Below, in pieces: positions 30,533 through 48,814 of a stretch of 60,811 nt of DNA. The notes under the pieces were generated by a model that searched no databases, was not told the origin of the DNA, and was given only the letters and a program-made list of their open reading frames with translations. Positions within the stretch are counted from its first letter, which is position 1. The number at the start of each line of letters is the position of its first letter. Source of the stretch: a virus. The stretch spans positions 1-60,811 of IMG/VR virus record IMGVR_UViG_3300009049_000004; one strand, given 5' to 3'. The translations under genes and the position numbers were made by a program.

Positions 30533-30946
30533 ATGCCATCATATGCAGATTTAAACACTAGCATGCAAGAAAAAGCTGGGGCACAGCTACGCACGTTTGA
30601 TAAAGGAATTACTATTACAATACAATCGTGGGTTCGTATTTGGGGGTTTGATAGCTCTTACGGATCATGGATGATTGTTAACGGCTATGGTTGGTATGGT
30701 AATAGTGCTCATTACCACAGATTTGAATATGTTAACGCAAATAACACATTGTTTGAAAACTATCTTGATGGCGGAATATATACCGGTGGTATTATCCGTT
30801 CACAAGATGTTATTGATTCAATTACTGATGTTGTTCGAAGAGCTGTTGATTTGGTCGAAGGCAGACTAACTAACAGAAGTATGACTGCACGTCCTTGTCA
30901 CCAAAGCTGTCATAGTAGTTGTCATACATCTAGAGGAAGAAGATAA
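30533..30946 (+). CDS. Fibre-associated protein with C-terminal CHxS triplet (paralogue A)
   Basis: This encodes 137 residues. The first ~115 form a conserved domain (QLRTFDK near residue 19, FDSSYG, GGI, then an amphipathic helix VVRRAVDLVEGR). The tail is three tandem CHxS tetrapeptides (CHQS, CHSS, CHTS) ending in RGRR. The neighbouring gene encodes a paralogue with the same tail. It starts one base after the giant fibre stop and overlaps the next ATG (TAATG). The Cys/His repeat could be a metal-binding tip, as in the HxH iron sites of T4 gp37, or a substrate for the radical SAM proteins that follow. The second is inference from gene order. No leader cleavage site is evident. Confidence 0.8.
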   Translation: MPSYADLNTSMQEKAGAQLRTFDKGITITIQSWVRIWGFDSSYGSWMIVNGYGWYGNSAHYHRFEYVNANNTLFENYLDGGIYTGGIIRSQDVIDSITDVVRRAVDLVEGRLTNRSMTARPCHQSCHSSCHTSRGRR

Positions 30947-31368
30947 TGGCTGCATCAGTATCTGACATTAACTCATATGTACAAACATATTCTGGCTCAC
31001 AACTAAGAACTTTTGATAAAACCGTCACATATACCGTAAATACGTATGTTCGGTATTATCGATTTGATAGCGCATATGGCGGTGCGTTGAGGCTTGACGG
31101 TGCTCAATATACTACAAACTCAACCTTTACTAGAAGATATCTTCATTACTCCTGGACCGGGCGCGATGCACTCTTTGACGGCTATTATGACTCTGGAATT
31201 ACTGCAGGTGGACTTATGTATGCTCAAGATATTGTAGATACTGTAGAAGATGCTGTAAGAAGAGCTGTTGATCTAATGGAGGAAAGAATCGTAAATACAG
31301 TCAAGACAATTAACGCGTGCCATGCTAGTTGCCATAGTAGTTGTCACACATCGAGAGGAAGACGCTAA
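30946..31368 (+). CDS. Fibre-associated protein with C-terminal CHxS triplet (paralogue B)
   Basis: This 140-residue paralogue shares with the upstream gene QLRTFDK, FDSxYG, the C-terminal helix (AVRRAVDLMEER) and the tail CHAS-CHSS-CHTS-RGRR. The middle of the domain is diverged. The tail is the best conserved part, with the last 12 residues identical in both proteins. That is the pattern expected of a functional peptide segment under strong selection. It overlaps both neighbours by TAATG, and the following gene is the first radical SAM protein. The same two alternatives apply as for paralogue A: a metal-coordinating fibre tip or a post-translationally modified tail. Confidence 0.8.
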   Translation: MAASVSDINSYVQTYSGSQLRTFDKTVTYTVNTYVRYYRFDSAYGGALRLDGAQYTTNSTFTRRYLHYSWTGRDALFDGYYDSGITAGGLMYAQDIVDTVEDAVRRAVDLMEERIVNTVKTINACHASCHSSCHTSRGRR

Positions 31369-32543
31369 TGTCTATGCAAAAATCATATTGTAAACAAATG
31401 AGATATTCTGGACCAGAAAGTCTAACACCATCTGATGCATCTAAATTCGATGTTCTTATTCAAATGGAAGTTTTAGCTGGGTGCGATCACGGTTGCTTAG
31501 GTTGTTTCGTAGATAAAAACATTAATCCTGATATGAACCAACAAATTATTGATAGAGCAAAGGAACTCGCTGATGGTGTAAAAAGAACTGGGCTTAATCT
31601 TAGAGAATTTGTCATAGGTCCAACAGATTTCTTTTCTGCAACTAACACGGAGTCAGTTTTAAATAACTCAGTAGTCCAAGAGATTATGAGAGAACACGTT
31701 GGCGCTCGGATTGCAGCACCTGCAAAATTTGATATCGCTACAATGGAAAGAGTAAAAGAAATCTATGCAATTCTTGATGACGAAGATAAGTATCGCCGTG
31801 ATATGATCATTGAGTTTATTATGCCAATCGGTAAAGTAGATCAGATGTTAAATGATGAAGAATACTTTAATAATGTTATGGAAAAAGTAGAATTCTTTAA
31901 AAATAATACACCAAAACAAATGGATTGGTCTTGGACACTACAGGCTTCTAACGTTGTTGGTAAGAAGATTGATAAAGAAACATATAACAAGATTGTTCAA
32001 AAATCAGTAAACGAATACAAGACTATTGTAGAAATGAACCCTGCTTTCTCAAGAGCGAGATCCCAATTGGTACAGCGTAGAAACCTGTTTGGATGGAACG
32101 ATTTCCTTGGTAGAGTTATTGATAAAGATAACGCACAAGAGACAGTTATGTCAATGGCTAATCTTTATTGTAACTCAATTAACTTTATTGGACTTACAAT
32201 CGTACCAGGAGAACACGGACCTACTACACATTTAAATGTAATGCTACACGAACAAGCATTCTTCCTTAATAATAAAAACTTAGACGTTACAGGTCTTACC
32301 TTCGAAGAAATATTAGATCGTAAAAACGAGCTAGTAACCAAGGGCATAAATAGATCAAGCAAAGTATCTGATTGCAACGGATGCCAATTTGCCGTAGCTT
32401 GTGCAAGTAGACTAATTTTTGAAGCTCAAGAAACTTTAAACGTCGATGGATGTGTTTTAAACAAAGATGTCCTTGCAGAATATAACCCATACGATTGGAC
32501 TTGGAACGACGATGCGATGGAAAAACTAGGAGTAACATCATGA
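31368..32543 (+). CDS. Radical SAM protein with C-terminal auxiliary Cys cluster (family 1)
   Basis: This is 391 residues from the ATG that overlaps the upstream stop (TAATG); an in-frame TTG at 31341 would lie inside the previous gene. The radical SAM cluster motif CxxxCxxC is at C39, C43 and C46 (GCDHGCLGCF). IGPTDFF follows ~40 residues later, where other radical SAM enzymes carry GGEP. The C-terminus has CNGCQFAVAC and a later Cys (VDGCVLNK), a four-Cys set fitting a SPASM/twitch auxiliary 4Fe-4S cluster as in peptide-modifying enzymes. Its place right behind the CHxS genes makes those tails the obvious candidate substrate, though this is not shown by sequence. The stop overlaps the next start (ATGA). 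Confidence 0.85.
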   Translation: MSMQKSYCKQMRYSGPESLTPSDASKFDVLIQMEVLAGCDHGCLGCFVDKNINPDMNQQIIDRAKELADGVKRTGLNLREFVIGPTDFFSATNTESVLNNSVVQEIMREHVGARIAAPAKFDIATMERVKEIYAILDDEDKYRRDMIIEFIMPIGKVDQMLNDEEYFNNVMEKVEFFKNNTPKQMDWSWTLQASNVVGKKIDKETYNKIVQKSVNEYKTIVEMNPAFSRARSQLVQRRNLFGWNDFLGRVIDKDNAQETVMSMANLYCNSINFIGLTIVPGEHGPTTHLNVMLHEQAFFLNNKNLDVTGLTFEEILDRKNELVTKGINRSSKVSDCNGCQFAVACASRLIFEAQETLNVDGCVLNKDVLAEYNPYDWTWNDDAMEKLGVTS

Positions 32544-33632: not shown

Positions 33633-34538
33633 ATGAATGATAATGATACAAACAACTTGAATCCAGACAGAGAATTCGAAGATCACAAACTTTCAGAGCG
33701 TGAGAAGAATTTTAAAGCTTATACTTTACCTCTTGCTCCTCAAGATTTAGTTGCGATATATAAACAAAAAGAAGAAGATAAAGACTTTATTCTCTATGTA
33801 GACTACTATCAAACTAAACAGAAATTAAGCCCTAAGCATATTATTATATATTTGGCAAACACCAACTTTAAGGCTGGCTTTACTTTCTTAGATGAAGAAT
33901 TAATTACAGAATATATTAAATCAGATTTTATGATTGATTGTCCAATTCTTGTGCGTATGGTTTCTATTATAGTCAGAATGAGATTGCATTATGATATCAA
34001 TGGTGCTGAAAAGAAATTAACTATTTTATTCCCAGAAGAAAAAATACATCAATTTATTGAACAGAACATTGAATTAGTCGATGAACTAATCGAAACTATT
34101 AGAGATTCTGTGCCGTGGGCTATGGTTAATTTGCATGAAAACTTGACTGACGAAGCCAAAAAAGAAGAGAAAGAACTTACAAATTTTATCGATAATATTG
34201 AGGTTTATGATAAACCATCGAATTGCGGACCTAACGTTGCACGATTTATTACAGAAGCTTGGGACGGGTTTTTATGTATTATTCATAATAAGGGTGTAAG
34301 CTCGACTTATAATAAAACAGTTTATAATGAACAACCAAAGTACTTCGGTAAAGATTTATACTACATTATGAACGAAACTAGGGTTATAGATCAGATTATG
34401 GCATTGTTCCCATCATGGTTTTGGGCTAAAATCGAAACAGTAGATATAAACGCGCTATTAGAAGAAACTGAGGGCGAACATATCGATAAATTTGTCGACG
34501 GTCTTGAAGATAAGTTCAATGATAGTCCATCTAAATAA
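33633..34538 (+). CDS. Unknown protein inside the radical SAM operon
   Basis: This encodes 301 residues starting at an ATG preceded by AGGATG. The sequence is mainly helical and acidic, with a hydrophobic patch near residues 105-120 (ILVRMVSIIVRMRLHYDI) that is too charged for a clear membrane helix. The C-terminus is very acidic. Only two cysteines are present and no known motif. It overlaps the next radical SAM start by 20 bases. Function unknown. Co-transcription suggests it serves the same process as its radical SAM neighbours. Confidence 0.7.
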   Translation: MNDNDTNNLNPDREFEDHKLSEREKNFKAYTLPLAPQDLVAIYKQKEEDKDFILYVDYYQTKQKLSPKHIIIYLANTNFKAGFTFLDEELITEYIKSDFMIDCPILVRMVSIIVRMRLHYDINGAEKKLTILFPEEKIHQFIEQNIELVDELIETIRDSVPWAMVNLHENLTDEAKKEEKELTNFIDNIEVYDKPSNCGPNVARFITEAWDGFLCIIHNKGVSSTYNKTVYNEQPKYFGKDLYYIMNETRVIDQIMALFPSWFWAKIETVDINALLEETEGEHIDKFVDGLEDKFNDSPSK

Positions 34539-35541
34539 TTCTTATGCTGGCTATTATACATATGATGAAGATAAAAGTCCAACAAATATTGATTTTCTCA
34601 GAACAGAAATAAATTTAGATATCTTACACGGATGTTCTCAACAATGTCCTGGATGCTTTATACCAAGAAAAAACTTAACAAAAGCAGATAACCTAGAAAC
34701 CTTATATAATCTTCTTATAGAAGGCGCGTATTATCCTGACGAAATAACAATCGGCCCAACTGATATATTCGATGCTGAAAATTTCAATGAAATCATGAAT
34801 CATCCTTATATGGAAAAAATATACGGAATATCTGCAGTAGGATTTACATCCACTTTAACTCAACCTTATCAATTAATAAGAGATAAACTTGATAAGATAT
34901 GGAGTTTATATAACAATATAGCGAGAATACCGGATATTGATTTTAAAATTGTTTTAGATATAAACAAATATTTAGATGGAGAATTAGATGATTGGTATCG
35001 TAAACTTGCGATGTTTAAACATGGTTCTGTGCAATTTAGAGTTAACTATCATAAAGATATATTCAAACGCATTTCATACAATGAATTAGCTCAAAAAGTA
35101 TTCGATGACTTTAACGCGCCAGTTATAATCACGCCTTCTTTCTTAACTGATAGAAATGCAAGAGGTAAAGTAGAACAACACCTTGCAAACTTTAGACGTG
35201 AAATGGTTGAACAAAACATAGATAAAAAATGGCTAAACTTATATACATTTTTTGATGCGAAGTTTAACGGTTATGGTTGTCAAAATTATAGTTTTTATAA
35301 TAACAAACTCTATATTAATCCATTCTTATATGATGTGATTATTCAACGTACACCTCAGTTTGAAACAAATATGGATGCTAATACTTTATACGACAACATA
35401 GAATATGCACAACAAGTTGATGACTGTAATGGATGTGAATATATGATGAGTTGTGCAGAACGCAACGTTCATTTGTATATGGAGTCGAGAGGATTAGACA
35501 CTTGCGTCGCATTGAAAGAATACATGTATGCCTCTAATTAA
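34519..35541 (+). CDS. Radical SAM protein (family 1, paralogue 2)
   Basis: This is 340 residues from ATG 34519; a TTG at 34492 is in frame but lies deeper in the upstream gene. The cluster motif is at C39, C43 and C46 (GCSQQCPGCF), followed by IGPTDIF. The C-terminal auxiliary set is CNGCEYMMSC and a later Cys (LDTCVALK). The order and spacing match the 31368 gene, so these are paralogues. It belongs to the overlapping operon and the next start lies within its last 14 bases. The likely chemistry is SAM-dependent radical modification of a peptide or protein. The substrate is unknown. Confidence 0.85.
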   Translation: MIVHLNNSYAGYYTYDEDKSPTNIDFLRTEINLDILHGCSQQCPGCFIPRKNLTKADNLETLYNLLIEGAYYPDEITIGPTDIFDAENFNEIMNHPYMEKIYGISAVGFTSTLTQPYQLIRDKLDKIWSLYNNIARIPDIDFKIVLDINKYLDGELDDWYRKLAMFKHGSVQFRVNYHKDIFKRISYNELAQKVFDDFNAPVIITPSFLTDRNARGKVEQHLANFRREMVEQNIDKKWLNLYTFFDAKFNGYGCQNYSFYNNKLYINPFLYDVIIQRTPQFETNMDANTLYDNIEYAQQVDDCNGCEYMMSCAERNVHLYMESRGLDTCVALKEYMYASN

Positions 35542-36685
35542 GAATAATCTATACTATGAGATGACCACAGAGACTCAGACAAAGCCTGTATCAGCGGTTA
35601 AGATACAGCTAGACGTTTTAGACGGATGCCACCATAAGTGTCCTGGATGCTTTGTACACAGACGTGGTAACTCAAGTGATAAAAATCAGTTAGAGAATGC
35701 AAAGCAATTTATCAGAAGTATTACAGATCAAGGCATACTTGTTGATGAAATATTAATTGGTCCTACTGACTTTTTAGCATCAGAGAATTTCTTTGATGTC
35801 ATGCCTGATTTATTAGATATTATAAATGAGAACTCTCCTATATTAGCGTTTGTTTCTACATTAATTGATGGAGACATAGAAGGATTTTGCGAGTTTATTA
35901 CAGACTATGTAAATTTAGATACTGAGATAGAAATAGGTATTGCGTCAAATCCTTATAAGTTTTTCGATAAAGACTATTTACAACACATCTCTGATATGTT
36001 ATATTATATAGATCAAAATCTAGAACATGAAGTAACTTATACTTTTGTTGTTAATATAAGAGATTACGATCTAGATTATTCTGAACTTCACAGATACGCG
36101 GTAGAAAAGTTTGATACAATCCTAGATTTTATTCCAAGCGTATCGCGTTCTCATAAAGCAAAAATCATTTTAGAAACTCTTGATAAGTTTAATGATTACT
36201 TTAATGTCTTAGCCAAAGATACTAATCTTAATAACATTATGGTTGATCATTCTCATGCTGGAATTAATTATACTGTTTTAAACTATAAAAGAGGAGAGTG
36301 GTATCTTAGTCCGTTTATGTATGAAAATATGGCAATATACCATGAAATGTTTAAGATAGATTCTTTTGAAGATGTCGTACCAATGGTAGAAGACCAGATA
36401 CGTAGAGCAAAAGGAACTGAATGTGAAAATTGCGAGTTGTTTTTTTCTTGTTATAATAGAAAAATTATCTTATTAAGAGATTATTTAGGAGTCGATAGAT
36501 GCATTGCTCCTAAAAAGAATATGTTGAACAATATACACAATTATAATGGCCCTGCACAAGAAATGTATAAATGGGAAGGATATTCTGTAGAGAATGACAA
36601 AAAAGGTTATCGCAAAAAGTTTTTAGTCACCACAGATGATGATCCAGAATTAGAAAGAATTAAGGATATATCTTATGTTAAATAA
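35528..36685 (+). CDS. Radical SAM protein (family 1, paralogue 3)
   Basis: This encodes 385 residues with the cluster motif at C34, C38 and C41 (GCHHKCPGCF), then RRGN and IGPTDFL. The C-terminal auxiliary cysteines are CENCELFFSC plus DRCIAPKK. Compared with the other paralogues it has an extra ~45-residue charged tail. The start is the ATG within the previous gene's end; an alternative ATG at 35561 is possible, but no better ribosome site is seen there. It overlaps the next gene by 11 bases. It is closest in style to the next gene, with which it shares the RRGN segment after the cluster motif. Confidence 0.83.
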   Translation: MPLIKNNLYYEMTTETQTKPVSAVKIQLDVLDGCHHKCPGCFVHRRGNSSDKNQLENAKQFIRSITDQGILVDEILIGPTDFLASENFFDVMPDLLDIINENSPILAFVSTLIDGDIEGFCEFITDYVNLDTEIEIGIASNPYKFFDKDYLQHISDMLYYIDQNLEHEVTYTFVVNIRDYDLDYSELHRYAVEKFDTILDFIPSVSRSHKAKIILETLDKFNDYFNVLAKDTNLNNIMVDHSHAGINYTVLNYKRGEWYLSPFMYENMAIYHEMFKIDSFEDVVPMVEDQIRRAKGTECENCELFFSCYNRKIILLRDYLGVDRCIAPKKNMLNNIHNYNGPAQEMYKWEGYSVENDKKGYRKKFLVTTDDDPELERIKDISYVK

Positions 36686-37832
36686 TGATTGGAAAGATAT
36701 AGTAAGTGGAGGCGGAATGGGTGAAGAGTTCGCTTCTATTGATAGTATGAAACAATATAAAATTCAAGTTAACCTAGAAATATTAGAAGGTTGCTCTTAT
36801 ATGTGTCCTGGTTGTTTTGTGAAACGTCGCGGAAACTGGCATCCAAAATCAATAACAATGTTTCATTCTTTGGCTTACGAATTAAAAGATAGAACAGACA
36901 TCGTATTAGATGATATTGTGATAGGACCTACTGATTTCTACGGAGCTGAAAACTTAGATGAGATTATCAATAATTTAAAATTATCTGACGCCATTAAGAT
37001 GATGCCAAAAGATAATAGAAACATTCAACACAATTGTTCTATACTTGGTTCGTTATCTGAGAAAGATATTGAAGGAAAGATAAGAGATATTGAGAAATCG
37101 CCTTTAGGAGAAGCAGTAGAAGCCTGGGATGTTCAGATCGCTTTGGATTTAAATCGATTAATGAATGACCAAGAATATATCGATGCGCTTGATGAAAGGA
37201 TAGAGACATTTAAAAACAGCTCTTTAAACTTCGAAATATCAATGGCTACTAATATCGTTCAAGGTGTAGAAGAAATACTATACCCAGCTATTGATTTTGT
37301 TCGTTCGAAATACGAAACTGTTATCGAAGTATTACCTTCTGTAGTTAGATCATTTAACCATAGTGCAAAGCACGGTGATAAACTATTTGAATGGAATGAT
37401 ATGTTAACTCGATTGGCATTAGATACGCATCGTTTTAAAAATAAGTTTCACTTCTTACAGGGAGATGTATCGCATAAAGCATTTAATTATTCAGTTATAA
37501 GTATTCACAAAGGAAACATGTATTTGTCTCCTTTCATATACGAAAATGCTCAGATACACACAGAAGATTTTCTAGTATCTGATGGTTGGATGTGGTTACC
37601 AGATGCTGATATATCTGATTTCATACTAGATAGAAAGAATGAAATTGTCAATAGTCAAATTGAAAATAGTCTTGAAAAAGAATGTGGAACATGCAAATAT
37701 CTTAACATATGCGCGAACAGAATGGTGCCATTAATAATGGATACAGTATTTAATGGAAGAAAGGAATGCATTCTTAATAAAGATGTTATTGCTTTATTTG
37801 ATGATGAGGTTTATCATGGGAATAGTTACTAA
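36675..37832 (+). CDS. Radical SAM protein (family 1, paralogue 4)
   Basis: This encodes 385 residues. The cluster motif is at C40, C44 and C47 (GCSYMCPGCF), then KRRGN and IGPTDFY. C-terminal auxiliary cysteines are CGTCKYLNIC and KECILNKD. The N-terminus carries a short Gly-rich segment (SGGGMG) absent from the other members. Overlaps on both sides (11 and 17 bases) show tight coupling. The RRGN and auxiliary-cluster spacing suggest a recent common origin with the upstream gene. Each copy may act on a different residue or substrate. The reaction cannot be named from sequence. Confidence 0.83.
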   Translation: MLNNDWKDIVSGGGMGEEFASIDSMKQYKIQVNLEILEGCSYMCPGCFVKRRGNWHPKSITMFHSLAYELKDRTDIVLDDIVIGPTDFYGAENLDEIINNLKLSDAIKMMPKDNRNIQHNCSILGSLSEKDIEGKIRDIEKSPLGEAVEAWDVQIALDLNRLMNDQEYIDALDERIETFKNSSLNFEISMATNIVQGVEEILYPAIDFVRSKYETVIEVLPSVVRSFNHSAKHGDKLFEWNDMLTRLALDTHRFKNKFHFLQGDVSHKAFNYSVISIHKGNMYLSPFIYENAQIHTEDFLVSDGWMWLPDADISDFILDRKNEIVNSQIENSLEKECGTCKYLNICANRMVPLIMDTVFNGRKECILNKDVIALFDDEVYHGNSY

Positions 37833-38835
37833 TAACCTAAGAGCTGCTAAAGCTGATAAAGATTTTGATCTATCATTCTCTGAAGGACATGAAATTAAAG
37901 TACAGTTTAATTGCGAAGTATTATCGGGGTGTGAGTTTAAATGTAAAGGTTGTTTTGTAAACAAACTTGGTTCCAACATGGGATCTTATGATAGACTTAA
38001 TAACGCTATAGATTTATTTAATGCAAACGGTTACAGAGTGTCAACCATTAATATTGGGCCTACTGATTTATTTGGTAATAATAATGTTATCGAGTTATTA
38101 AAAGACGAAACATTTCGAGAGTGTTTAAGCAAGGTTTCTACTATACAATTCGTAACAACCCTAACAAGCATTTCGCAAGAAGTTATTGAACTACTTAACA
38201 GCATCCCTAAAATAGATGGATTTTTATATGATTGTAATATAGCTTTACAACCTCCTGTAAATTGGGATTGGGTAGAAGAGCGATTAGACCTTCTGAATGG
38301 ATTTACGGATGATCTAAATTATTATATGGTTTATAACATGGGTAATGATGACGAGTACAATTCTAAAGTGCTTGAAATGTCAGAACTTGTTGAGGATAGG
38401 TTTGACTCAATCCTTACATTAAACCCGTCATTCTTTAGAGCACCAAAATCTAAGGTTCAAAAACATCTTATTGAGAAATGGAAGAACTATGACTTCTCAG
38501 ATAATCTTATGCCTAAAACATTTATTGACCAAGCGCAAGGTGGTTCTTTAGAGTTAAACTATACTTACTGCAACGAACGTTTCTTTTGGACGCCATTCGT
38601 ATATGACATCGCTTTAATAGGTACTGATGAATTCCAAGTTAAAGATGAGAACGATATTGAATCATGGACTCAAGTAAAAGAAAATAAGTTTATGTCACAG
38701 TTGTCTTATTCAAGTAAAACTGATAACTGCGCCTCTTGTAAAAACCTAATGACATGTATTGATAAAGGCGTATTAAGTTATATGGAACATCATTCACTTA
38801 CGGGCTGTACGTTTCCTGGAGTAATAACGACCTAA
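37816..38835 (+). CDS. Radical SAM protein (family 1, paralogue 5)
   Basis: This is 339 residues from ATG 37816, which has an AGG-containing ribosome site just upstream. The frame extends to 37753 but that lies inside the previous gene. The cluster motif is at C39, C43 and C46 (GCEFKCKGCF), then IGPTDLF. The C-terminal auxiliary set is CASCKNLMTC and TGCTFPG, ending soon after. It is the last gene of the plus-strand operon. Its 3' end overlaps by 42 bases the 3' end of the minus-strand operon, with no room for a separate terminator. Confidence 0.83.
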   Translation: MGIVTNNLRAAKADKDFDLSFSEGHEIKVQFNCEVLSGCEFKCKGCFVNKLGSNMGSYDRLNNAIDLFNANGYRVSTINIGPTDLFGNNNVIELLKDETFRECLSKVSTIQFVTTLTSISQEVIELLNSIPKIDGFLYDCNIALQPPVNWDWVEERLDLLNGFTDDLNYYMVYNMGNDDEYNSKVLEMSELVEDRFDSILTLNPSFFRAPKSKVQKHLIEKWKNYDFSDNLMPKTFIDQAQGGSLELNYTYCNERFFWTPFVYDIALIGTDEFQVKDENDIESWTQVKENKFMSQLSYSSKTDNCASCKNLMTCIDKGVLSYMEHHSLTGCTFPGVITT

Positions 38836-39507
38836 GAATGTTCTTGGAAACGAATCATTAATCTTACCCCATTGTTCCATGCTATCTACAAATATATTTT
38901 TAAAAGTAACATCGATATCTTCCATTGGATAAATCGCCATCAGATCGTTACCGTAATTTAATCTAACTTCGTATGTTTCGTCTTTTAAAGGAAACAATAA
39001 GAATACATTAATCGCATGTTGATCATAGAAATTAAGAACGCCTGGTGCTACAAGTATCCCATGCTTGCGTAAATCTTCACTGTAATGAAATTCACAATTC
39101 ATAAAATCTACTGGCTTCTTAGCTTTTAAATACCAAGGAGCTTCTAATTTCACGACAGCATATCCCTTATAAAAATCATCGCCATACTGTCTTTGTTCAT
39201 GCACACCAGTACTGACTTGATGAGAATGCAACGGACTTGCAGACGAAACCTTTCCGTTTGGTTCAACTCTAAAAATCATATCGGACCACAATCTCATTAT
39301 AATAGCTTTTTGCATATATTGTGTAATTCCAGGACAAGCCTTTACAGTTGGGGTTGGAACCATAATGCCTGACTTTGAATTATAAACAGTGTACATTGTC
39401 GACAATTTTTTCCACCATGAAGGCTTTCTAATTTTAGATGTCCATTTAAAATTTTCGAAAACGCTTTTATCGTAAGTGTAAGCTTCAATCTCTAGTTTTT
39501 TTCTCAT
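38794..39507 (-). CDS. Conserved phage protein of unknown function, last in minus-strand operon
   Basis: This is 237 residues from ATG 39507; the frame extends six bases to a TTG. The N-terminus is basic. The middle contains CPGITQYMQKAIIMRLW, then a polar stretch with several His (PLHSHQVSTGVHEQRQ) and LVAPGVLNFYDQHAINVFLLF, suggesting a beta-barrel core. It resembles conserved hypothetical proteins of marine phages in overall style, but I cannot name a family. It overlaps the upstream radical SAM gene by 23 bases. Clustered His residues could bind metal. This is only a suggestion. Confidence 0.7.
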   Translation of the reverse strand: MRKKLEIEAYTYDKSVFENFKWTSKIRKPSWWKKLSTMYTVYNSKSGIMVPTPTVKACPGITQYMQKAIIMRLWSDMIFRVEPNGKVSSASPLHSHQVSTGVHEQRQYGDDFYKGYAVVKLEAPWYLKAKKPVDFMNCEFHYSEDLRKHGILVAPGVLNFYDQHAINVFLLFPLKDETYEVRLNYGNDLMAIYPMEDIDVTFKNIFVDSMEQWGKINDSFPRTFLGRYYSRKRTARK

Positions 39508-40621
39508 AATCAAATCCTGTAATTAAGTTCTGTCCAGTTTTTTCCATATAGTTAAACCACATTCTCATGATGCAGTCAGGTAAGTCTCGTTCTCTATTCT
39601 TCCAATCCCATTGGGTATAACATCTAAATCCACATTTGTTCCACCACTTACAAGATAAACAACCATTCTCGTCCATATATGCTTGCATCATACCAGCATT
39701 ATCTTTGGGTTTATATTCTGTATTAAAATCTCTCTGATCATATCTATCCCATCTACAATTAGATGTAGAATTATCGGGGAATATCGTAACCTTATTTAAA
39801 GCCAAGCAATGCATATGGTTACTATCATTATATATAAGATCTTTTATAGGATTAATATCGGGATAGTTATGATATACAAATTTAAGAAATTCTAAGTATT
39901 CACTATCAGATGGAATCATATAATCATAACCACGATCTGGAATGTAATCATCAAAGTAAAAGTTATCAAACTTTTCATATAGATAGTGAAAATACTCATC
40001 ATCGTCTGCCATAAACTTTTTTATTGATAAAGTAGTAGCAACCATATTAATTGATACGATATAGTCGGCAAAGTATTCTATATTTTTAGCATATGGACCT
40101 TTTGTTGGTCGCCCATCAAAGTCATATGAACATATAATATGTGAAGGAATTGCTTCAGCGTTTAGGTCGTCGAGCAGTCGCTGAACTCTGTCTCGTTTAC
40201 TAAATTGAAACGATGTTACCCACACAACTTTAATTTTTTGTTTATGTTCGTCAAATATCTTTTTAATTGCTACAAGGAAATCAAAGTAAACAGGGTAAGC
40301 CCATTCTGATATTCTATCTTGGAATAACTCACCGCCAACCATATTGATTTGGATTATATCAACTCTGCCTTTCATCTTAATGACATGTTGTTCAACTAAA
40401 TCCAATTTAGAGAATATCTCTTCCCTACTCAATCCTACGGTAGATTTTTTATCATGATGGCAGAACGAACAATTGAGGTGACAGTTTTCAAATAAAGTCA
40501 ACTCAATCTCAGCGATATCAGGTCGTTTAGTTTCTAATAATGTTTTTGTTATTTCAAAGTCCAAATAACATTTCCTCTTTATAGTATTCGTAGATATCGG
40601 GAACCATACCAAGTTTTTCAT
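39485..40621 (-). CDS. Radical SAM protein with SPASM-like C-terminus (minus cluster, fourth radical SAM)
   Basis: This is 378 residues if started at ATG 40621. A TTG at 40564 with a well-placed AGAGGAAA ribosome site and only 11 bases of overlap is a good alternative start. The cluster motif is C47, C51 and C54 (CHLNCSFC), with MVGGELF as the GGE-type motif. Later cysteines (CLALNK, NCRWD, CLSCKWWNKCGFRC and DCIM) fit a SPASM-type domain with auxiliary clusters. It differs from the plus-strand family, which has GPTD. The target is unknown. It lies in an operon with three other radical SAM genes. Confidence 0.83.
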   Translation of the reverse strand: MKNLVWFPISTNTIKRKCYLDFEITKTLLETKRPDIAEIELTLFENCHLNCSFCHHDKKSTVGLSREEIFSKLDLVEQHVIKMKGRVDIIQINMVGGELFQDRISEWAYPVYFDFLVAIKKIFDEHKQKIKVVWVTSFQFSKRDRVQRLLDDLNAEAIPSHIICSYDFDGRPTKGPYAKNIEYFADYIVSINMVATTLSIKKFMADDDEYFHYLYEKFDNFYFDDYIPDRGYDYMIPSDSEYLEFLKFVYHNYPDINPIKDLIYNDSNHMHCLALNKVTIFPDNSTSNCRWDRYDQRDFNTEYKPKDNAGMMQAYMDENGCLSCKWWNKCGFRCYTQWDWKNRERDLPDCIMRMWFNYMEKTGQNLITGFDYEKKTRD

Positions 40622-40979
40622 TAAACTCTAGTTGGAATAGTATCTCGTCGTAAGTTTCTTTGTCTTGCCAATATGGAACAAAGTGCGGATCATTATTAAA
40701 TAGTAACTCAGGATCGTTAAGTGCATCGAAAAACGGTTCGTTAAAATCCCTGTTTAACCAATGAGCATAACATATAGCAACTACATATGATTTAGCTGGG
40801 TAAATCCATTCGTCTACATACTCTCTGAAGTGTGTTAGAGCAAACTCAACCGTAAGGTCAGGTTGCCAATTAATCTCCACGTCAGTCAGATCATCTTTGA
40901 ATAAAGATGCTGTCAAATGATATGCGCTTTGTCTAGCTTTCCATTCTTTCATAATATTCCAACAATCCTTTATATCCAT
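40554..40979 (-). CDS. Small acidic protein between radical SAM genes, unknown
   Basis: This encodes 141 residues, rich in Trp, Tyr and acidic residues, mostly helical by composition. It has only two Cys and no motif I recognise. It overlaps the upstream radical SAM gene by 47 bases and the downstream one by up to 68, so it is firmly part of the operon. Small proteins in such positions can be substrate-recognition partners of radical SAM enzymes, but I see no RRE-like winged-helix signature. Function unknown. Confidence 0.65.
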   Translation of the reverse strand: MDIKDCWNIMKEWKARQSAYHLTASLFKDDLTDVEINWQPDLTVEFALTHFREYVDEWIYPAKSYVVAICYAHWLNRDFNEPFFDALNDPELLFNNDPHFVPYWQDKETYDEILFQLEFNEKLGMVPDIYEYYKEEMLFGL

Positions 40980-41847
40980 TACAACTATTAGTCAAATCTT
41001 TAACATATCGGTAATGTTCTGTTAAACAATTACCATAATATTTACACGTCTTACATATTTCGCTTAGATTGTTCTCAGGTTCTTCCCTTGCCCACTTCTT
41101 GTACTCATAATATGTTTTATATTCTTTGAAGTATTCCCTATCATATTTATCGAACTCCAATACCCCAAACTTACCAGATGGAGTAATATACACATGATCA
41201 TTACTAAAAGCATCATACTCTTTATCTATGCTTCTCCATATATTATCCATATTCTGAAAATTAAACTTTTTCTCTGTTTTTGCTTCGTCAAACTTAATAA
41301 CAAAATCTTCAAAGTCTTTGTGTGTAACAGGATGTGCATTTGCTTGGTTTATTGAGTAAGGTTTAATTTCTACAGACTTAATATTAGATACCATATTAAG
41401 AGTGAAGATCATAAACTCTACATCCATCTCTAATACTTTTGGAGAGGCCAATATTAATACAGATAAATCCTTATTGGCGTTCATCATATTATTTAAAACA
41501 TGCTGTTCTTTTTCTCTGGCATGGAAATCATATGATACAGATAATGTTACATCCTCATCTCGAAAGAAGTCTGGGAACGCAGACAAATTAGTATTGATAT
41601 TGATAGGACCTTTGTAATAATTACGTATTACTTTCTTTAATGAATAATAATATTCTGGTGATAGTAAACCAATCTCACCGCCGTATAGATCTACGTGCCC
41701 TATTTGATCATCTACTTGACTTAAAGAATGATCTAACCATAAAGGCGTTATCTTATGTCTATCGTTTAATTGTGCTGGCGTTAAATAACAAAAATCACAA
41801 CTGAAGTTACAATAGTAGGTGGGATTAATTGATAGATTCATCAACAT
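40933..41847 (-). CDS. Radical SAM protein, compact (minus cluster, third)
   Basis: This is 304 residues from ATG 41847; a second ATG at 41841 is equally possible. The cluster motif is C13, C17 and C20 (CNFSCDFC), close to the N-terminus, followed by LYGGEIGLL. The C-terminus has CKTCKYYGNC and a later NSCNGYKG, suggesting one auxiliary 4Fe-4S cluster. This resembles twitch/SPASM radical SAM enzymes acting on peptides. The start overlaps the previous gene's stop by 23 bases. A residue stretch resembling SPASM loops (ITPSGKFGVLEFD) precedes the last cysteines. Confidence 0.82.
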   Translation of the reverse strand: MLMNLSINPTYYCNFSCDFCYLTPAQLNDRHKITPLWLDHSLSQVDDQIGHVDLYGGEIGLLSPEYYYSLKKVIRNYYKGPININTNLSAFPDFFRDEDVTLSVSYDFHAREKEQHVLNNMMNANKDLSVLILASPKVLEMDVEFMIFTLNMVSNIKSVEIKPYSINQANAHPVTHKDFEDFVIKFDEAKTEKKFNFQNMDNIWRSIDKEYDAFSNDHVYITPSGKFGVLEFDKYDREYFKEYKTYYEYKKWAREEPENNLSEICKTCKYYGNCLTEHYRYVKDLTNSCNGYKGLLEYYERMES

Positions 41848-42862
41848 AAGGCGTCACCATATCTGGGCTCATTCCATTCGTAGCAAGTATTCTTGGAGCG
41901 AGCGTTTTCATTTGTTTGCAATGTGCTTCATTTGTCCCTTCTCTTTTCATATCACGTACTGTCTTTTTACAACCATTACATATTTCGAACATTGGACACG
42001 TATAGCAAGCCATCTTCATTGTTTGGATATGAGGATCGTTAGCCAATGGAGTCTGCATTTCGCCATTCATTTCTTCCTCAAAATCAATAGGATAATCCAT
42101 ATCATCAGCAAACGAACCGCAAGAATAGTAATCACCGCCAGGGTTAAAAGCTCGAATGCCACTATCACATTGTCTATTTTGTGGACAAGATGTTGAAAAA
42201 CCTTTGAGGCGTTTCATCATTTGCTTTGTATTATATTCGTATTCTGCTAATCCACGATCGTATATCTCAAGATATGTTTCGTAAATCTTACTTAACTGAT
42301 ATGTACTGCCTTGAACACCAGAAGCCATAGCATAATTTAGTTTGCATTCTACACCCATTTCTTTAGCAAGTTCAACGTTCTTAATAGCAAGATGTTCGTT
42401 CTCATCTGTTATGACGGCAATAAAGTCTGGTCTTTCTCCAGTGTGTTTCAACATAGCGTTTGATACCATCCAAAAATCTTTCTCAGTAAATTCGGAATAA
42501 TCACCTTTTAATCTACCACCACCATATTGAAATGATGTTGCACAACCAAACCTATCATTCTTAAAGATAGGAAGCCACTTCTCGGGACGCATTAAAAAAG
42601 GCCACAGATTAGATGTAAAACTAATTGATGCGGGATAATCATGTTCATTAAGATGATCTATTAGTTCCTGATAATATTCTGGCTTTACCATAAGAGGGTC
42701 ACCACCATTAACGATAATAGTATTAGTATCGGGATATCGCTTAAGAAATTTGTATATGTATTCCAAGTCTAATAAGCCAACTTCGTTAGGATCGATGTCG
42801 GTAGAAGAACAAAATGTACATTTAAAATTACAAGCTTCAGTGGGTTTAATAATTAAATCCAT
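41825..42862 (-). CDS. Radical SAM/SPASM protein (minus cluster, second)
   Basis: This encodes 345 residues. The cluster motif is C11, C15 and C18 (CNFKCTFC), with VNGGDPLM as the GG(E/D)P motif. The C-terminal half has a SPASM-like cysteine series: CPQNRQC, YYSCGSF, CYTCPMFEICNGCKK and HCKQM. This set fits two auxiliary clusters, as in peptide-modifying SPASM enzymes such as anaerobic sulfatase maturases. It overlaps the upstream gene by 10 bases. The match to SPASM spacing is better here than in the plus-strand family. The substrate is unknown. Confidence 0.85.
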   Translation of the reverse strand: MDLIIKPTEACNFKCTFCSSTDIDPNEVGLLDLEYIYKFLKRYPDTNTIIVNGGDPLMVKPEYYQELIDHLNEHDYPASISFTSNLWPFLMRPEKWLPIFKNDRFGCATSFQYGGGRLKGDYSEFTEKDFWMVSNAMLKHTGERPDFIAVITDENEHLAIKNVELAKEMGVECKLNYAMASGVQGSTYQLSKIYETYLEIYDRGLAEYEYNTKQMMKRLKGFSTSCPQNRQCDSGIRAFNPGGDYYSCGSFADDMDYPIDFEEEMNGEMQTPLANDPHIQTMKMACYTCPMFEICNGCKKTVRDMKREGTNEAHCKQMKTLAPRILATNGMSPDMVTPYVDESIN

Positions 42863-43881
42863 CCCTTATCTCCTGCTAGTTTTAGCATTAGAGTTTTAGG
42901 CGCTGGACAAACGTCTTCCATCCATTGAAGTTGGTGACAATCAGAATGGCAATAGATAAAGACTGGGCAATCATAACATCTTGGATCACGATCATGAGTT
43001 TCACACGAAATGATTTCCATTCGTTTCGGGCTTAATCTTACTTCTTTTGCTGGCATACTAATATCACCATACCATTGAGTAGGCGCAGTATTAGGACAAC
43101 CTGCTACAGTTCCATCAGCATTGATTGTGTGTATCTTTTGTTCACAATCCCTACAGAACGTACCATTAAAGAATTGACCTTTACTAAACTTATCATAAAC
43201 TGAGTTAAGAAAGTTGTTTTCAATAGGGTGATCTTTAGTTGTCTCATGCATTTTCATCCAAAAAGCATCGAGCTCAGAATTATGAGGGAAGATTTCTGTG
43301 TTTATCGTTGCGTTACCATCATGAGTAAGTCTTTCATAACTAATAGTACCAATACCTAATGAATACATATAATCAGCAATTTCAAGAGGATCCATTGCAA
43401 CAACATCTTTAGACACTGAAATAAAGCATTGGATATAACATCCCTCAGCTACCAAAAGCTTTACATTATCTTCCCATAACTTGCGCTGCTTTTCATTTGC
43501 AAATCTAATATTTGGGTCCCAAGATGTACCGATAGAACCAGAGTCTAATATTTTGAGAAACTCGATACGTTCATCTGTAAGTTTATAAGTTAGATTTGTT
43601 GTAATACCATGTGTGCATTTATCACCCCAATGATCTTTCGTAACATTGTAGAAATGCCACAGATCTTTCATAGGCGCTAGCAAAGGTTCTCCACCATGAT
43701 ATTCGAAGTGAATACGGTTTGAACCATCGTCTAGTTCGTTACACCACTTTGCAGTTTTATCTGCATCAAAATAAATTTTACGACCATTGATACCAGAGGT
43801 AAAACAATGTGCACAATTTAAATTACAAGTTTCTGTAGTCTTAACGTATACGATTAAGTGTTTCTGAGTCGTGAATGCCAT
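42853..43881 (-). CDS. Radical SAM/SPASM protein (minus cluster, first)
   Basis: This encodes 342 residues with a classical radical SAM N-terminus: C19, C23 and C26 (CNLNCAHC), then YHGGEPLL. The C-terminal SPASM region reads CRDCEQ, INADGTVAGCPN, then CYDCPVFIYCHSDC and VCPAPK. This is the standard SPASM order, in which the GTVxxC segment precedes the CxxCxxxxxCxxxC block. Of all nine radical SAM genes here it is the one most like known protein- and peptide-maturing SPASM enzymes (sulfatase maturase style). Its start overlaps the cupin gene by 41 bases. It is probably co-transcribed from the promoter at 44322. Confidence 0.88.
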   Translation of the reverse strand: MAFTTQKHLIVYVKTTETCNLNCAHCFTSGINGRKIYFDADKTAKWCNELDDGSNRIHFEYHGGEPLLAPMKDLWHFYNVTKDHWGDKCTHGITTNLTYKLTDERIEFLKILDSGSIGTSWDPNIRFANEKQRKLWEDNVKLLVAEGCYIQCFISVSKDVVAMDPLEIADYMYSLGIGTISYERLTHDGNATINTEIFPHNSELDAFWMKMHETTKDHPIENNFLNSVYDKFSKGQFFNGTFCRDCEQKIHTINADGTVAGCPNTAPTQWYGDISMPAKEVRLSPKRMEIISCETHDRDPRCYDCPVFIYCHSDCHQLQWMEDVCPAPKTLMLKLAGDKGWI

Positions 43882-44296
43882 GTGATAACATTAGTGCCTT
43901 TTCATAATTTAACGCTCTGTGCGGTGTTCCTGCTTCTATGAACAGAGTTTCATTTTTAGATAAAGAAATCTCTTTACCTTCAACTTCCATGATCTTAGTT
44001 CCTTCGACGCATTCTATAATAACATCAATTGGATCAGTATGTACATCAAAAGATGCACCGTTTTCCTGATTATAAAAAACATGAACAGTTCCGTTATTAA
44101 TGCCTAAAGGTTTTTCAAACTGTTCTACTTTAATGGTAGCTTTATTTGCTAATAAAACCGTAGTTTCTCCAAGATAAGCAATGTATTCTGATTGTTTTAT
44201 GTAATGCTGATTTCCATTTTCATCTATATGAGATACGTCGTGGTTATTAAAGCATTCTTCTGTTAATAAGAAATTTTCAAATTGGTCAAATGTCAC
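43841..44296 (-). CDS. Cupin-like protein, first gene of minus-strand operon
   Basis: This is 151 residues from a GTG start (44296) preceded by GGAG at about seven bases. The C-terminal ~80 residues have a cupin look: FDVHTDPIDVIIECVEG, then a second motif SLSKNETLFIEAGTPHRALN, ending with a strand. The HTD in the first motif and H in TPHR could bind a metal. It is the first gene after a minus-strand late promoter and overlaps the first SPASM gene. Cupins beside radical SAM genes may be oxygenases, sugar-binding proteins or regulators. The role here is unknown. Confidence 0.75.
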   Translation of the reverse strand: MTFDQFENFLLTEECFNNHDVSHIDENGNQHYIKQSEYIAYLGETTVLLANKATIKVEQFEKPLGINNGTVHVFYNQENGASFDVHTDPIDVIIECVEGTKIMEVEGKEISLSKNETLFIEAGTPHRALNYEKALMLSHGIHDSETLNRIR

Positions 44297-44364: not shown

Positions 44365-44391
44365 ATTGTATATATTATGAGGAGATTGATT

Positions 44392-44961
44392 ATGGAAATG
44401 ACTCCAAGATGGCCTACTATGTTTGGTCAAGGGAAATTTGAAGTTGAAGGGTTATTTGAGTACCTATTTGCAAACTACGACCTAAACGATCCAGGCGGTG
44501 ATGTAGATGGCGCAAATATTTTTACAGATAATTCTGAAATGATGAATAAGTTTAAGTCCGTTGTTCATGGTAAATTCAACGAATATCTTACAAACACAAT
44601 CAGTAAGACTATAGAAGACTTTGGCGATCACGAAATTAAAGCTTGGATTACAGGTCATGGTAAAGGTTATAGCATGACAACCCATAACCATTCTGGTGCA
44701 CACATATCAGCTGTGTTTTACGTTTTAGCTGAAGATAAGTATTCTGGTGGGTCAATTGTATTCATTGATCCAAGAAGTAATGCAAATCGTGGATACGATA
44801 GTTCGTTTGATGATTTATTTGCGCATCATGCATTCGTCCCAGAAACTGGTGATTATGTAATCTTTCCTTCTTTTAATTACCATCACGTAAAACCTTACTA
44901 CTCTGAATTTAGAATATGTATACCAGTTGATTTGTATTTGTATAGTAACAAAGATGTATAA
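44392..44961 (+). CDS. 2-oxoglutarate/Fe(II)-dependent oxygenase
   Basis: This is 189 residues from ATG 44392, which has AGGAG seven bases upstream; the ATG at 44377 overlaps that ribosome site and is rejected. The double-stranded beta-helix pattern is clear. There is HNH at residues 98-100, then HISAVFYVLAE and GGSIVFIDPR, and near the C-terminus DYVIFPSFNYHHVKP with His164/165 and Arg174 in EFRICI. This matches the small phage-type 2OG-Fe(II) oxygenases (putative 2OG-FeII_Oxy_5), with the distal His binding iron and the Arg binding 2-oxoglutarate. Such genes are common in marine T4-like phages. The substrate is unknown; protein or nucleic-acid hydroxylation are the usual ideas. Confidence 0.85.
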   Translation: MEMTPRWPTMFGQGKFEVEGLFEYLFANYDLNDPGGDVDGANIFTDNSEMMNKFKSVVHGKFNEYLTNTISKTIEDFGDHEIKAWITGHGKGYSMTTHNHSGAHISAVFYVLAEDKYSGGSIVFIDPRSNANRGYDSSFDDLFAHHAFVPETGDYVIFPSFNYHHVKPYYSEFRICIPVDLYLYSNKDV

Positions 44962-45023: not shown

Positions 45024-45413
45024 ATGGCACTTTCATATACTTACAAAGTCCGCAATCTGAAGGTAAAAGATGAAGTTAACAGCGAAGGCGCTACATTGCA
45101 AAACGCTGTTGTTCAAACTTATTGGACTATCATCGGTACTGACGAGAACGGAAACTCTGGCGAATGGTCAGGGGCAACACCATTTACTGCAGCAAGTGTT
45201 CCTGCCGGTTCATTCACACCTTTCGAAACCTTAGAAGAAGCTGATGTTATTGGTTGGATTCAAAACGTTGTTAATAATGATGCCCAATATAAAGCACATA
45301 TTGATGAGCAACTTACAAAAGAAATCAGTAGAAATGTAGAAACAGAAGTTGCTGGAGAAGATTTGCCTTGGGGTGTAGCGGCAGCAGCGCCTGATGCAAG
45401 CGAAGGCGAATAA
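45024..45413 (+). CDS. Small phage protein, paralogue 1 of a tandem pair
   Basis: This encodes 129 residues starting after an ACGGAG ribosome site. The N-terminal strands (SYTYKVRNLKVKD), VVQTYWTIIGTDENGNSG, then a helix with WIQNVVNN, match the next gene in order, so the two are tandem paralogues. The C-terminus is acidic and Ala-rich. Such small proteins are frequent in marine myophages and are usually annotated as hypothetical or structural. High expression is suggested by its own late promoter and strong ribosome site. Function unknown. Confidence 0.72.
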   Translation: MALSYTYKVRNLKVKDEVNSEGATLQNAVVQTYWTIIGTDENGNSGEWSGATPFTAASVPAGSFTPFETLEEADVIGWIQNVVNNDAQYKAHIDEQLTKEISRNVETEVAGEDLPWGVAAAAPDASEGE

Positions 45414-45416
45414 AAA

Positions 45417-45746
45417 ATGACATATACTTGGGAAATTATAAAGCTTGGGCATGCAGATGTAACTAACGCTGGTGGTGAAAGTTTAACTAATGCAATTATC
45501 CAAGTTCAATGGAGAAAGAAAGCCACAGACAGTGACGGCAATTCTTCAGTATATTTGGGAAAAACTAATCTTGATGTTTCAACTACTAGCGCGGCAGATT
45601 TTGTAGCTTTAGATGATGTAACAAAAGAAAACGTTATCGCTTGGGTAGAAGAAAGCTTAAGTGCTTCCGAAGTAACGATGATAAATAATATTTTACAGAA
45701 AAAAGTTCAAGAAACTGCTATGACTGAGATCGCACCTTCTTGGTAA
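45417..45746 (+). CDS. Small phage protein, paralogue 2 of a tandem pair
   Basis: This encodes 109 residues, three bases after the previous stop. It shares with the upstream protein the opening YTW/YTY strand, the central IVQVQWRKKATDSDGNSS block (VVQTYWTIIGTDENGNSG in the other), and a helix with VIAWVEESL (VIGWIQNVV). The C-termini differ. The pair arose by duplication. No enzyme or membrane feature is seen. A minor structural role is plausible, but only from context. Confidence 0.72.
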   Translation: MTYTWEIIKLGHADVTNAGGESLTNAIIQVQWRKKATDSDGNSSVYLGKTNLDVSTTSAADFVALDDVTKENVIAWVEESLSASEVTMINNILQKKVQETAMTEIAPSW

Positions 45747-45788
45747 GATCGCCTATACTTTGTTATAGTTTTATATTATGGAGACAAA

Positions 45789-46823
45789 ATGCACGATTTG
45801 CACACAGGTGGATTAGCTAATTACGCCTTAAAAAGAGGCGGTTCACTGCACCCAATTTGTATACCAACAGAAGTGCTTGGTAACGAAACAGGGATTATGA
45901 ACCCCTCTATTTTTCTTCACAAAGGAAAAATACTCGTTAACGTAAGACACGTTAACTATATCTTATATCACTCAGAAGGTAAACAGTTTCCTCATCAGTG
46001 GGGTCCTTTGGTATACGTACATCCCGAAACAGATGTTACTTTGAGAACGCATAACGTAATATGCGAGCTTGATAAGAATATGAATCTGGCCAATGCTCAA
46101 AGAATTAATATGGTTTTAGATACAGAACCTACTTGGAATTTTATTGGATTAGAAGATGCGCGCTTGTTTAGTTGGGATGATAAACTATTCTTATGTGGTG
46201 TAAGAAGAGATTGTTATGATAATAAGGGTAAAGGGCGCATGGAAATGTGTCATATAGATTTCGTAGATGGTGAATGGAAAGAATTGTCGCGTCATCCAAT
46301 TCCTGCGCCTGGTGATGACGGATCTTATTGTGAAAAAAATTGGATGCCTATTCTTGATATGCCTTATCACTTTGTAAAATGGACAAATCCTACTCAGGTG
46401 ATTAAATTCGATATAGATGAAGGAACAACGGTAGATGCGGTATATGACGCGTCAAAATTTGTTAACGCGAATAAAGATTTTAGAGGTGGATCTCAAGTAC
46501 TTCGCATTAATGAAAATCAAAGAATGGCTTTTATTCACGAAACAAACCTATTAAGAGATCCTTTTGGCAGAAAAGATGGTAACTATGCGCACAGAGTAAT
46601 CGTATGGGATAACGATTGGAATATAGTTCATAAATCTAAAGAATTCCATTTTATGGGAACTTATTATGATCATGTTAAAGCACAAGATTATAATATAGAA
46701 TTTGTAACAGGCGCTGCAATGTTGGGTAACGATATTCTTATTTCTTATGGATGGCAAGATAATGCCTCGTATGTGTTACGCATGCCTCAAAATGTGTTTG
46801 CAAATTTTCTTTATGGAGAGTAG
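45789..46823 (+). CDS. GH130-like five-bladed beta-propeller (glycan-active) protein
   Basis: This encodes 344 residues. The sequence has the repeated strand pattern of a five-bladed propeller, and motifs resembling the GH130 mannoside phosphorylases and related glycosyltransferases: MNPSIF near residue 37, FIGLEDARLF near 117, CGVRRD, EKNWMPI near 181 and a late GAAML. In GH130 an Asp in the GxEDxR region is the catalytic residue, and it is present. The next two genes encode a methyltransferase-like and a nucleotidyltransferase-like protein, so a small glycan-modification set is plausible. It could act on virion or host surface sugars. The family call is moderate, since I have not aligned it. 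Confidence 0.6.
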   Translation: MHDLHTGGLANYALKRGGSLHPICIPTEVLGNETGIMNPSIFLHKGKILVNVRHVNYILYHSEGKQFPHQWGPLVYVHPETDVTLRTHNVICELDKNMNLANAQRINMVLDTEPTWNFIGLEDARLFSWDDKLFLCGVRRDCYDNKGKGRMEMCHIDFVDGEWKELSRHPIPAPGDDGSYCEKNWMPILDMPYHFVKWTNPTQVIKFDIDEGTTVDAVYDASKFVNANKDFRGGSQVLRINENQRMAFIHETNLLRDPFGRKDGNYAHRVIVWDNDWNIVHKSKEFHFMGTYYDHVKAQDYNIEFVTGAAMLGNDILISYGWQDNASYVLRMPQNVFANFLYGE

Positions 46824-46826
46824 ATT

Positions 46827-48065: not shown

Positions 48066-48814
48066 AACCAGTAATCGTAACAGGAGGGTTTGACCCTTTA
48101 CATTCAGGACATATCGCGTATTTTAAAGCTGCTAAGGAATTAGGTTCTATTCTATTTGTTGGTGTTAATAGTGATGAGTGGTTAACACGAAAAAAGGGAA
48201 GACCTTTTATGCCAGTTGAAGAACGTATTGCAATCATTAAAGAAATAGGTTGTGTAGGACATGTATTCGCATTTAATGATGACGATGATACAGCAATTAA
48301 CGCTATTGAATATGTAAAGAAACAAGCACCAGGAAATTCTAGCATAGTCTTCGCGAATGGTGGAGATCGTACTAAAGATAATATCCCAGAAATGGTATTC
48401 GATGATGTAGAATTTTTATTTGGTGTTGGTGGAGAAGATAAGAAAAATAGTTCATCTTGGATTTTAAAAGAATGGGATAAACCTACAACAAAAAGATTGT
48501 GGGGTAAATACAGAGAATTAGATCAAAATGGTCATTGGAAAGTTAAAGAACTGTCTATAGATGTTGGTAAATCATTATCTGATCAAAGACATTTTATACG
48601 TTCTGAGCATTGGCATGTTGTTGATGGAGATCTTAAAATGAATCTAGACTTCCAAAATGGATATAGTACATCTAAAATCTATAAAACCGGAGACAGCATT
48701 GACATTCCAAGACGGACATGGCATCACGCAACGAATGTCGGTGATAAACCAGTAAAGGTAATTGAGGTTTGGATGGGAGATACTCTCTCAGAAGAAGATA
48801 TAGAAAGAAGATAA
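48062..48814 (+). CDS. Cytidylyltransferase-like domain fused to a cupin
   Basis: This is 250 residues from the ATG overlapping the upstream stop (ATGA). Residues 1 to ~135 are a nucleotidyltransferase of the cytidylyltransferase fold: GGFDPLHSGHIAYFKAA with the HxGH motif at 14-17, VGVNSDEWLTRKKGRP and a later VFANGGDR. The family includes glycerol-3-phosphate cytidylyltransferase and heptose-1-phosphate adenylyltransferase. Residues ~160-250 form a cupin with EHWHVVDG and DIPRRTWHHATN, much like the C-terminal isomerase domain of bifunctional mannose-1-phosphate guanylyltransferases. The fusion suggests sugar-nucleotide synthesis. Together with the two upstream genes it points to glycan modification. 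Confidence 0.75.
   Translation: MKPVIVTGGFDPLHSGHIAYFKAAKELGSILFVGVNSDEWLTRKKGRPFMPVEERIAIIKEIGCVGHVFAFNDDDDTAINAIEYVKKQAPGNSSIVFANGGDRTKDNIPEMVFDDVEFLFGVGGEDKKNSSSWILKEWDKPTTKRLWGKYRELDQNGHWKVKELSIDVGKSLSDQRHFIRSEHWHVVDGDLKMNLDFQNGYSTSKIYKTGDSIDIPRRTWHHATNVGDKPVKVIEVWMGDTLSEEDIERR

Follow-up and report, generated by a model that had tools for sequence, protein, structure and literature searches.

The window, by which we mean the whole stretch of 60,811 nucleotides analysed here (IMG/VR record IMGVR_UViG_3300009049_000004), comes from a virus with T4-like structural genes (portal, sheath, tube, and terminase). Directly downstream of the gene for a giant fibre-like protein lie two small genes, encoding tail proteins 1 and 2, which are followed by a long series of enzyme genes (Table 1). 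Both small proteins end with the same kind of 16-residue tag, CHxSCHxSCHxSRGRR. An earlier reading of this DNA, made from the sequence only, had noticed an identical 12-residue C-terminus; indeed, 15 of the 16 tag residues are the same in the two proteins, including the last 12. The same reading described TAATG overlaps coupling the small genes to the fibre on one side and to a radical SAM (rSAM) gene on the other. Such overlaps do join tail protein 1 to tail protein 2 (30944-30948) and tail protein 2 to the rSAM gene (31366-31370), but not the fibre to tail protein 1, as the fibre stop codon (30529-30531) and the ATG at 30533 are separated by a 1-nt gap. Tail protein 2 is predicted to fold as a helix-hairpin-helix (pLDDT 71), with the tag disordered in the monomer, and a search of the PDB and BFVD with this weak model found no match for the fold of the tail body. 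Elsewhere in the window, positions 10493-15187 encode a 1564-aa collagen-like tail fibre (Collagen, E 2e-79) with an S74 endosialidase-type chaperone at its end.

Table 1. Genes of the tail proteins and of the adjoining enzyme cluster in the window
Feature	Position	Strand	Remarks
Giant fibre-like protein, 2859 aa	21952..30531	+	C-terminus ...IIGIALSDSENGEVEVKV; directly 5' of tail protein 1
Tail protein 1, 137 aa	30533..30946	+	Tag CHQSCHSSCHTSRGRR at 30896-30943
Tail protein 2, 140 aa	30946..31368	+	Tag CHASCHSSCHTSRGRR at 31318-31365
rSAM A1 (GPTD family)	31368..32543	+	CxxxCxxC; C-terminal CX2CX5CX16C auxiliary motif
M1, 360 aa	32540..33622	+	Found in 42 loci; no Pfam match
M2, 301 aa	33633..34538	+	Near-universal partner: 96 loci and all six isolates
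rSAM A2 (GPTD)	34519..35541	+	
rSAM A3 (GPTD)	35561..36685	+	
rSAM A4 (GPTD)	36675..37832	+	
rSAM A5 (GPTD)	about 37822..38835	+	
C1, 239 aa	38794..39513	-	7 loci, near relatives only
rSAM B1, SPASM-like	39485..40621	-	Weak PF04055 match, E 0.007
D, 141 aa	40554..40979	-	Homologues in DT01, FLC6, and Phosso clusters
rSAM B2	40933..41847	-	
rSAM B3, B2-type by profile	41825..42862	-	Weak DynA (peptide maturase) similarity, E 1e-14, far below cut-off
rSAM B4, SPASM pattern	42853..43881	-	Adjoins tail gene in type-2 systems; 38-44% identity in isolates
Cupin	43841..44296	-	Cupin_2, E 4e-6
2OG-Fe(II) oxygenase	44377..44961	+	PF13759, E 9e-14

The five GPTD rSAM families of the earlier reading are all real paralogues, among which GPTD, CxxxCxxC, and the four C-terminal cysteines are invariant. 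Beyond what had been recognized before, the cluster also contains genes for a cupin and a 2OG-Fe(II) oxygenase and, at 39485-43881, four minus-strand rSAM genes. The CxxxCxxC motif is found in 183 of 184 A-type and 206 of 214 B-type rSAMs, and a C-terminal CX2CX5C...C in 176 and 213 of these, respectively, so that both types carry SPASM/twitch-like auxiliary-cluster motifs. The structure of M2, modelled from viral-contig sequences only, is predicted to be mostly helical (pLDDT 87) and found no fold match in the PDB; M2 looks unlike an RRE, an identity that we considered and rejected. Among the cluster proteins scanned with profiles, none matched an RRE or PqqD-like domain, although an RRE may be too divergent for such scans, and no protease or exporter gene was recognized in the cluster, several proteins of which have no assigned function.

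We scanned 2.9 million viral contigs of IMG/VR with the pattern CHxS-CHxS-RGR (two repeats plus RGR), which returned 107 stretches. As the final two CH units and the greater part of RGR are prescribed by this pattern, the unbiased parts are the leading CH, the final R, the stop, the loci reached via rSAM genes, and the isolates. A leading third CH unit and a stop exactly after RGRR, neither of them demanded by the pattern, are present in 140 of the 143 matches that have sufficient flanking sequence. Bacterial and archaeal genomes (257 Gb) gave ten matching stretches, only four of which hold true tails (L168, L170, L172, and L173). Together, these two results exclude a chance origin of the tag. 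The 116 distinct proteins collected all have exactly three repeats plus RGRR at their very C-terminus. Position x is free; Ser can give way to Q at position 4, to N at position 8, and to A at position 12, and G14 to S. The six Cys/His residues and R13, R15, and R16 are invariant. Tags of tandem paralogues differ by 192 silent versus 1 replacement differences in 403 codons at 13 fixed positions, which implies very strong selection on the protein sequence of the tag; recent duplication is excluded as an explanation, since silent differences affect about half of the codons compared, and a replacement just one. The tag is borne by five body groups, none of which are joined by blastp. We also tried to derive the two main body families from a common origin, but without the tag their profile comparison is not significant (hhalign probability 11%). 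Matches to phrog_35144, mostly via the tail, were obtained for the window proteins and for 25 of the 27 type-2 proteins; this family includes FLC6 gp72-like proteins (186 aa) and is listed without function, with no description as a tag and no tie to rSAM genes. A deviant system was observed on a Bacteriovoracaceae MAG contig (L172, CALHBL010000375.1), where the gene of a 205-aa tail protein with CHGSCHGSCHGSRGRR adjoins distant A-type and B2-type rSAMs.

The tag and the enzymes occur together whichever of the two is taken as the starting point. Calling rSAM presence by profile in the flank or by PF04055 over the whole record, we found rSAM genes, usually 4-6, on each of the 101 testable tail-bearing contigs, a tally that leaves out L050 and L077 (the tail of the latter runs to the locus edge). 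The three rSAM-negative records are exactly the three spurious pattern matches. Conversely, 48 of the 59 loci detected with the GPTD profile have a tail and the other 11 start inside the cluster, downstream of the expected tail site, so that the tail is present in 48/48 GPTD-rSAM loci long enough to include its position. Co-occurrence was the check that the sequence-only reading had itself proposed, with tails in phages lacking rSAM genes as the outcome that would speak against it; run both ways, the association is essentially perfect, and no such phage was found. Among 35 terminase-related records, rSAM genes accompany 11 of 11 tail-positive versus 8 of 24 tail-negative ones (Fisher p 2e-4); in seven of these eight, the rSAM genes lie at the contig edge, and the eighth (G078) carries a pair that is unrelated. 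Two arrangements can be distinguished: type 1, with two tails, GPTD rSAMs, M1, and M2, and type 2, with the order cupin-B4-TAIL-M2-B1...-2OG. The order cupin-B4-TAIL-M2-rSAMs-2OG is kept from marine T4-like to jumbo phages. The GPTD enzymes are only one branch; SPASM-type rSAMs (B4/B2 types) and M2 are the more general partners of the tag, in most cases along with a cupin and 2OG oxygenases. One phage (IMGVR_UViG_3300025138_000014, 151 kb; loci L029/L040) encodes two systems, one of type 1 (two tails and GPTD rSAMs) and one of type 2, whose bodies differ and whose tag is the same.

The tail-rSAM-M2 cluster is also present in six cultured jumbo phages, where the tail proteins are annotated as "hypothetical protein". 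These are the Pseudomonas phage pPa_SNUABM_DT01 (PA10_00065, ending in ...CHTSCHTSCHSARGRR), the Burkholderia phages FLC6, FLC8, and SURPRISE13 (FLC6 gp72, ...CHSSCHTSCHGSRGRR), the Agrobacterium phage Atu_ph07 (gp170, ...CHSSCHASCHNSRSRR), and the Sinorhizobium phage Phosso (XYS97446.1, ...CHTSCHASCHSSRSRR). Searching the isolates by tblastn with the short window protein or the tag alone gave no match; they were reached instead with representatives of other body families and with rSAM and M2 queries. A separate tblastn of 50,697 isolate records with B4, B2, and M2 retrieved the same six phages, all of them tail-bearing, and no others.

Since the same tail is always accompanied by a cluster of rSAM and iron/2-oxoglutarate enzymes, these phages most likely alter a part of their own virion by chemical means. 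In our opinion, it is likely that a phage-encoded peptide-modification pathway acts on a virion protein and that the tail is its substrate. The system would be a portable phage maturation module, in which several SPASM/twitch-like rSAMs, aided by the cupin, the 2OG-Fe(II) oxygenase(s), and M1/M2, would modify the three Cys-His dyads in the C-terminal CHxSCHxSCHxSRGRR of a small virion protein made beside the fibres. Most likely, Cys and/or His would become covalently crosslinked, either within a chain or between chains; the -2 Da thioethers proposed before are one of several possible modifications. The invariant arginines of RGRR would probably serve in enzyme recognition or be part of the finished tip, and the freely changing body may dock on the fibre or baseplate of each phage. 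The finished tip could then do the same job in phages that infect Pseudomonas, Burkholderia, Agrobacterium, Sinorhizobium, or marine bacteria. Given that the tag is the same across these very different hosts while the bodies diverge, a structural or penetrative job, as a crosslinked or metal-loaded tip, appears likelier than a receptor-specific one. As Cys, His, and Arg are invariant whereas Ser can be Q, N, or A, the serines need not react, and a chemistry of the Cys-His dyads is likelier than His-to-Ser links. A point against such a pathway is that rSAM chemistry, being sensitive to oxygen, is less common where the host is aerobic.

We infer that the tag is the substrate, as we do the bond type, the enzyme order, and the role of the product. 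Apart from the enzymes and M2, no sequence but the tag is common to all systems; moreover, the tag is rich in residues on which rSAM/SPASM enzymes act, and its length and position are fixed. The rigidity of the motif, its invariable C-terminal position, and the fact that several enzymes have one tag in common would also suit a docking tag that is not itself modified but recruits the enzymes, whose target would then be the neighbouring fibre, other parts of the tail protein, or a small molecule. Such a role seems unlikely to us, because bodies and fibres differ completely between clades, leaving only the tag, the enzymes, and M2 common to all, and because the reactive Cys/His content of the tag is typical of substrates.

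Several observations suggest that the tail protein belongs to the particle. In all 32 type-1 loci for which upstream sequence is available, the gene located -1 to +12 nt before tail 1 ends in a fibre-like manner, with a shared C-terminus (...IG.A...VEVKV/IEVKI) like that of the giant fibre of the window. In most type-2 loci reaching far enough, the gene preceding the cupin resembles a fibre or tail protein. For Atu_ph07, most virion proteins identified by MS are reported to be encoded in CDS 31-76, 170-215, and 284-329 (PMC6102473). The numbering of that paper agrees with RefSeq (gp215 capsid, gp140 sheath, gp141 lysozyme, and gp198 portal), so that the virion cluster CDS 170-215 begins at the tail protein gp170, which we regard as good, albeit indirect, evidence. 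Fibre adjacency and this CDS range suggest that the tail protein is probably virion-borne, which agrees with the fibre-linked virion protein envisaged in the first reading. Bodies and fibres differ by clade, with NNPH-repeat proteins in DT01 and long VEVKV-ended fibres in T4-like phages.

A histidine-rich motif at the end of a tail appendage has a precedent in the fibre tip of T4, gp37, which has HxH iron sites but is not known to have Cys pairs, enzymes, or a conserved C-terminal tag. By analogy, the three Cys-His pairs of each chain might, in a trimer, bind Fe or Zn without any modification, the rSAM genes being mere neighbours. The adjacency of the tail gene to fibres, the predicted disorder of the tag in the monomer, and the contrast between invariant Cys/His and a Ser swapped for Q, N, or A in some phages are all in keeping with metal ligands. 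However, this would leave unexplained both the invariant arginines and the conservation of rSAM genes (usually at least four, in the same order, in unrelated phages). We therefore regard an unmodified metal-binding tip as improbable. Metal binding after modification is compatible with the peptide-modification pathway too. Tentatively, we also raise the possibility that, in many lytic phages, 4-9 rSAMs, a 2OG oxygenase, and a cupin make a multi-crosslinked, perhaps metal-bearing virion tip required for entry.

Among the rSAM peptide-modification systems, the tag system most resembles the His-Xaa-Ser system (HxsA, HxsB/HxsC; TIGR03977, TIGR03978), which likewise ties C-terminal His-x-Ser repeats to rSAM/SPASM enzymes. 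The phage tails usually have three H-x-S repeats, each preceded by an invariant Cys and with a Ser that is at times Q, N, or A. In contrast with Hxs, the phage repeats are CHxS units followed by RGRR, their Cys being invariant and their Ser variable, and the system is phage-borne and comprises 4-9 rSAMs, a cupin, a 2OG oxygenase, and M2. Membership in the Hxs family is ruled out by the NCBIfam scan, in which neither the two window proteins nor 27 type-2 proteins matched the HxsA model, and by scores of the window rSAMs B4/B3 far below the cut-offs (HxsB, 33 bits versus 370; HxsC, 24.5 versus 268). The modification of a full-length functional protein, instead of a released peptide, is known from QhpD, an rSAM that crosslinks quinohemoprotein amine dehydrogenase. 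QhpD differs in its substrate and in being a single enzyme, and its family (TIGR03906) is matched here only weakly (24 bits versus 453).

With the rSAM RiPPs (ranthipeptides, sactipeptides, triceptides, and darobactin/dynobactin), the phage systems have in common SPASM-type rSAMs by a repeated, Cys-containing C-terminus. The resemblance of the rSAM, 2OG oxygenase, and cupin genes to RiPP or cofactor clusters, together with the distant similarity of B3/B4 to DynA, DarE, PapB, and HxsB, might suggest that the C-terminus is cut off and matured, in the manner of a RiPP or of PQQ, to give a free-standing small molecule or cofactor that acts on the infected host, with the body as a large leader. Nevertheless, one of the virion clusters defined by MS in Atu_ph07 begins with a homologue (PMC6102473), the bodies are large, diverse, and fibre-adjacent, and the cluster has no recognized protease or exporter gene, all of which makes a precursor peptide highly improbable. 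The phage systems further differ from rSAM RiPPs in that no RRE was found, in having several rSAM paralogues per tag, and in that the substrate would be a fibre-linked, probably virion-borne protein.

We know of no earlier part of a viral particle matured by rSAM chemistry, so that, if true, this would be the first. In the open-licence literature, we found no paper in which the tag or the cluster is connected with the maturation of virions, and literature searches on the tag motif yielded nothing relevant. Marine virome papers have listed rSAM genes as Fe-S genes, with 12 reported in one T4-like genome (PMC5332604), or as auxiliary metabolic genes (PMC7150976). In jumbo phages, rSAM, cupin, and 2OG genes have been noted separately and left without explanation (PMC8066314, PMC11898562), and Ralstonia phage RSF1 is said to have cupin, rSAM, and 2OG genes in common (PMC8066314). 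Our proposal offers a concrete function both for the rSAM genes filed as Fe-S or auxiliary metabolic genes (PMC5332604, PMC7150976) and for those that jumbo phages carry, without explanation so far, along with cupin and 2OG genes (PMC8066314, PMC11898562), as well as for these cupin and 2OG genes themselves. Because the predicted post-translational modification concerns cultured, purifiable phages, it is directly testable, and a tag of 16 residues that is portable and comes with maturases of its own is a possible source of new peptide chemistry.

The clusters also have other genes in or near them. Beside the 2OG oxygenase of the window, the region 45024-48814 encodes two DUF7936 proteins and a fusion of a cytidylyltransferase with a mannose-6-phosphate-isomerase-like cupin, together with two proteins that have no Pfam match; genes like these flank further copies of the cluster (L016, L168, L227, and L235). 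Close to the cluster of DT01, the region L174:3073-3810 encodes a peptide ligase of the R2K-clade ATP-grasp type (E 5e-31). In FLC6, two adjacent genes annotated as dihydrofolate reductase (gp77 and gp78; L175:12137-13350) lie inside the rSAM cluster, and we could confirm gp77 as DHFR_1 (E 2e-47).
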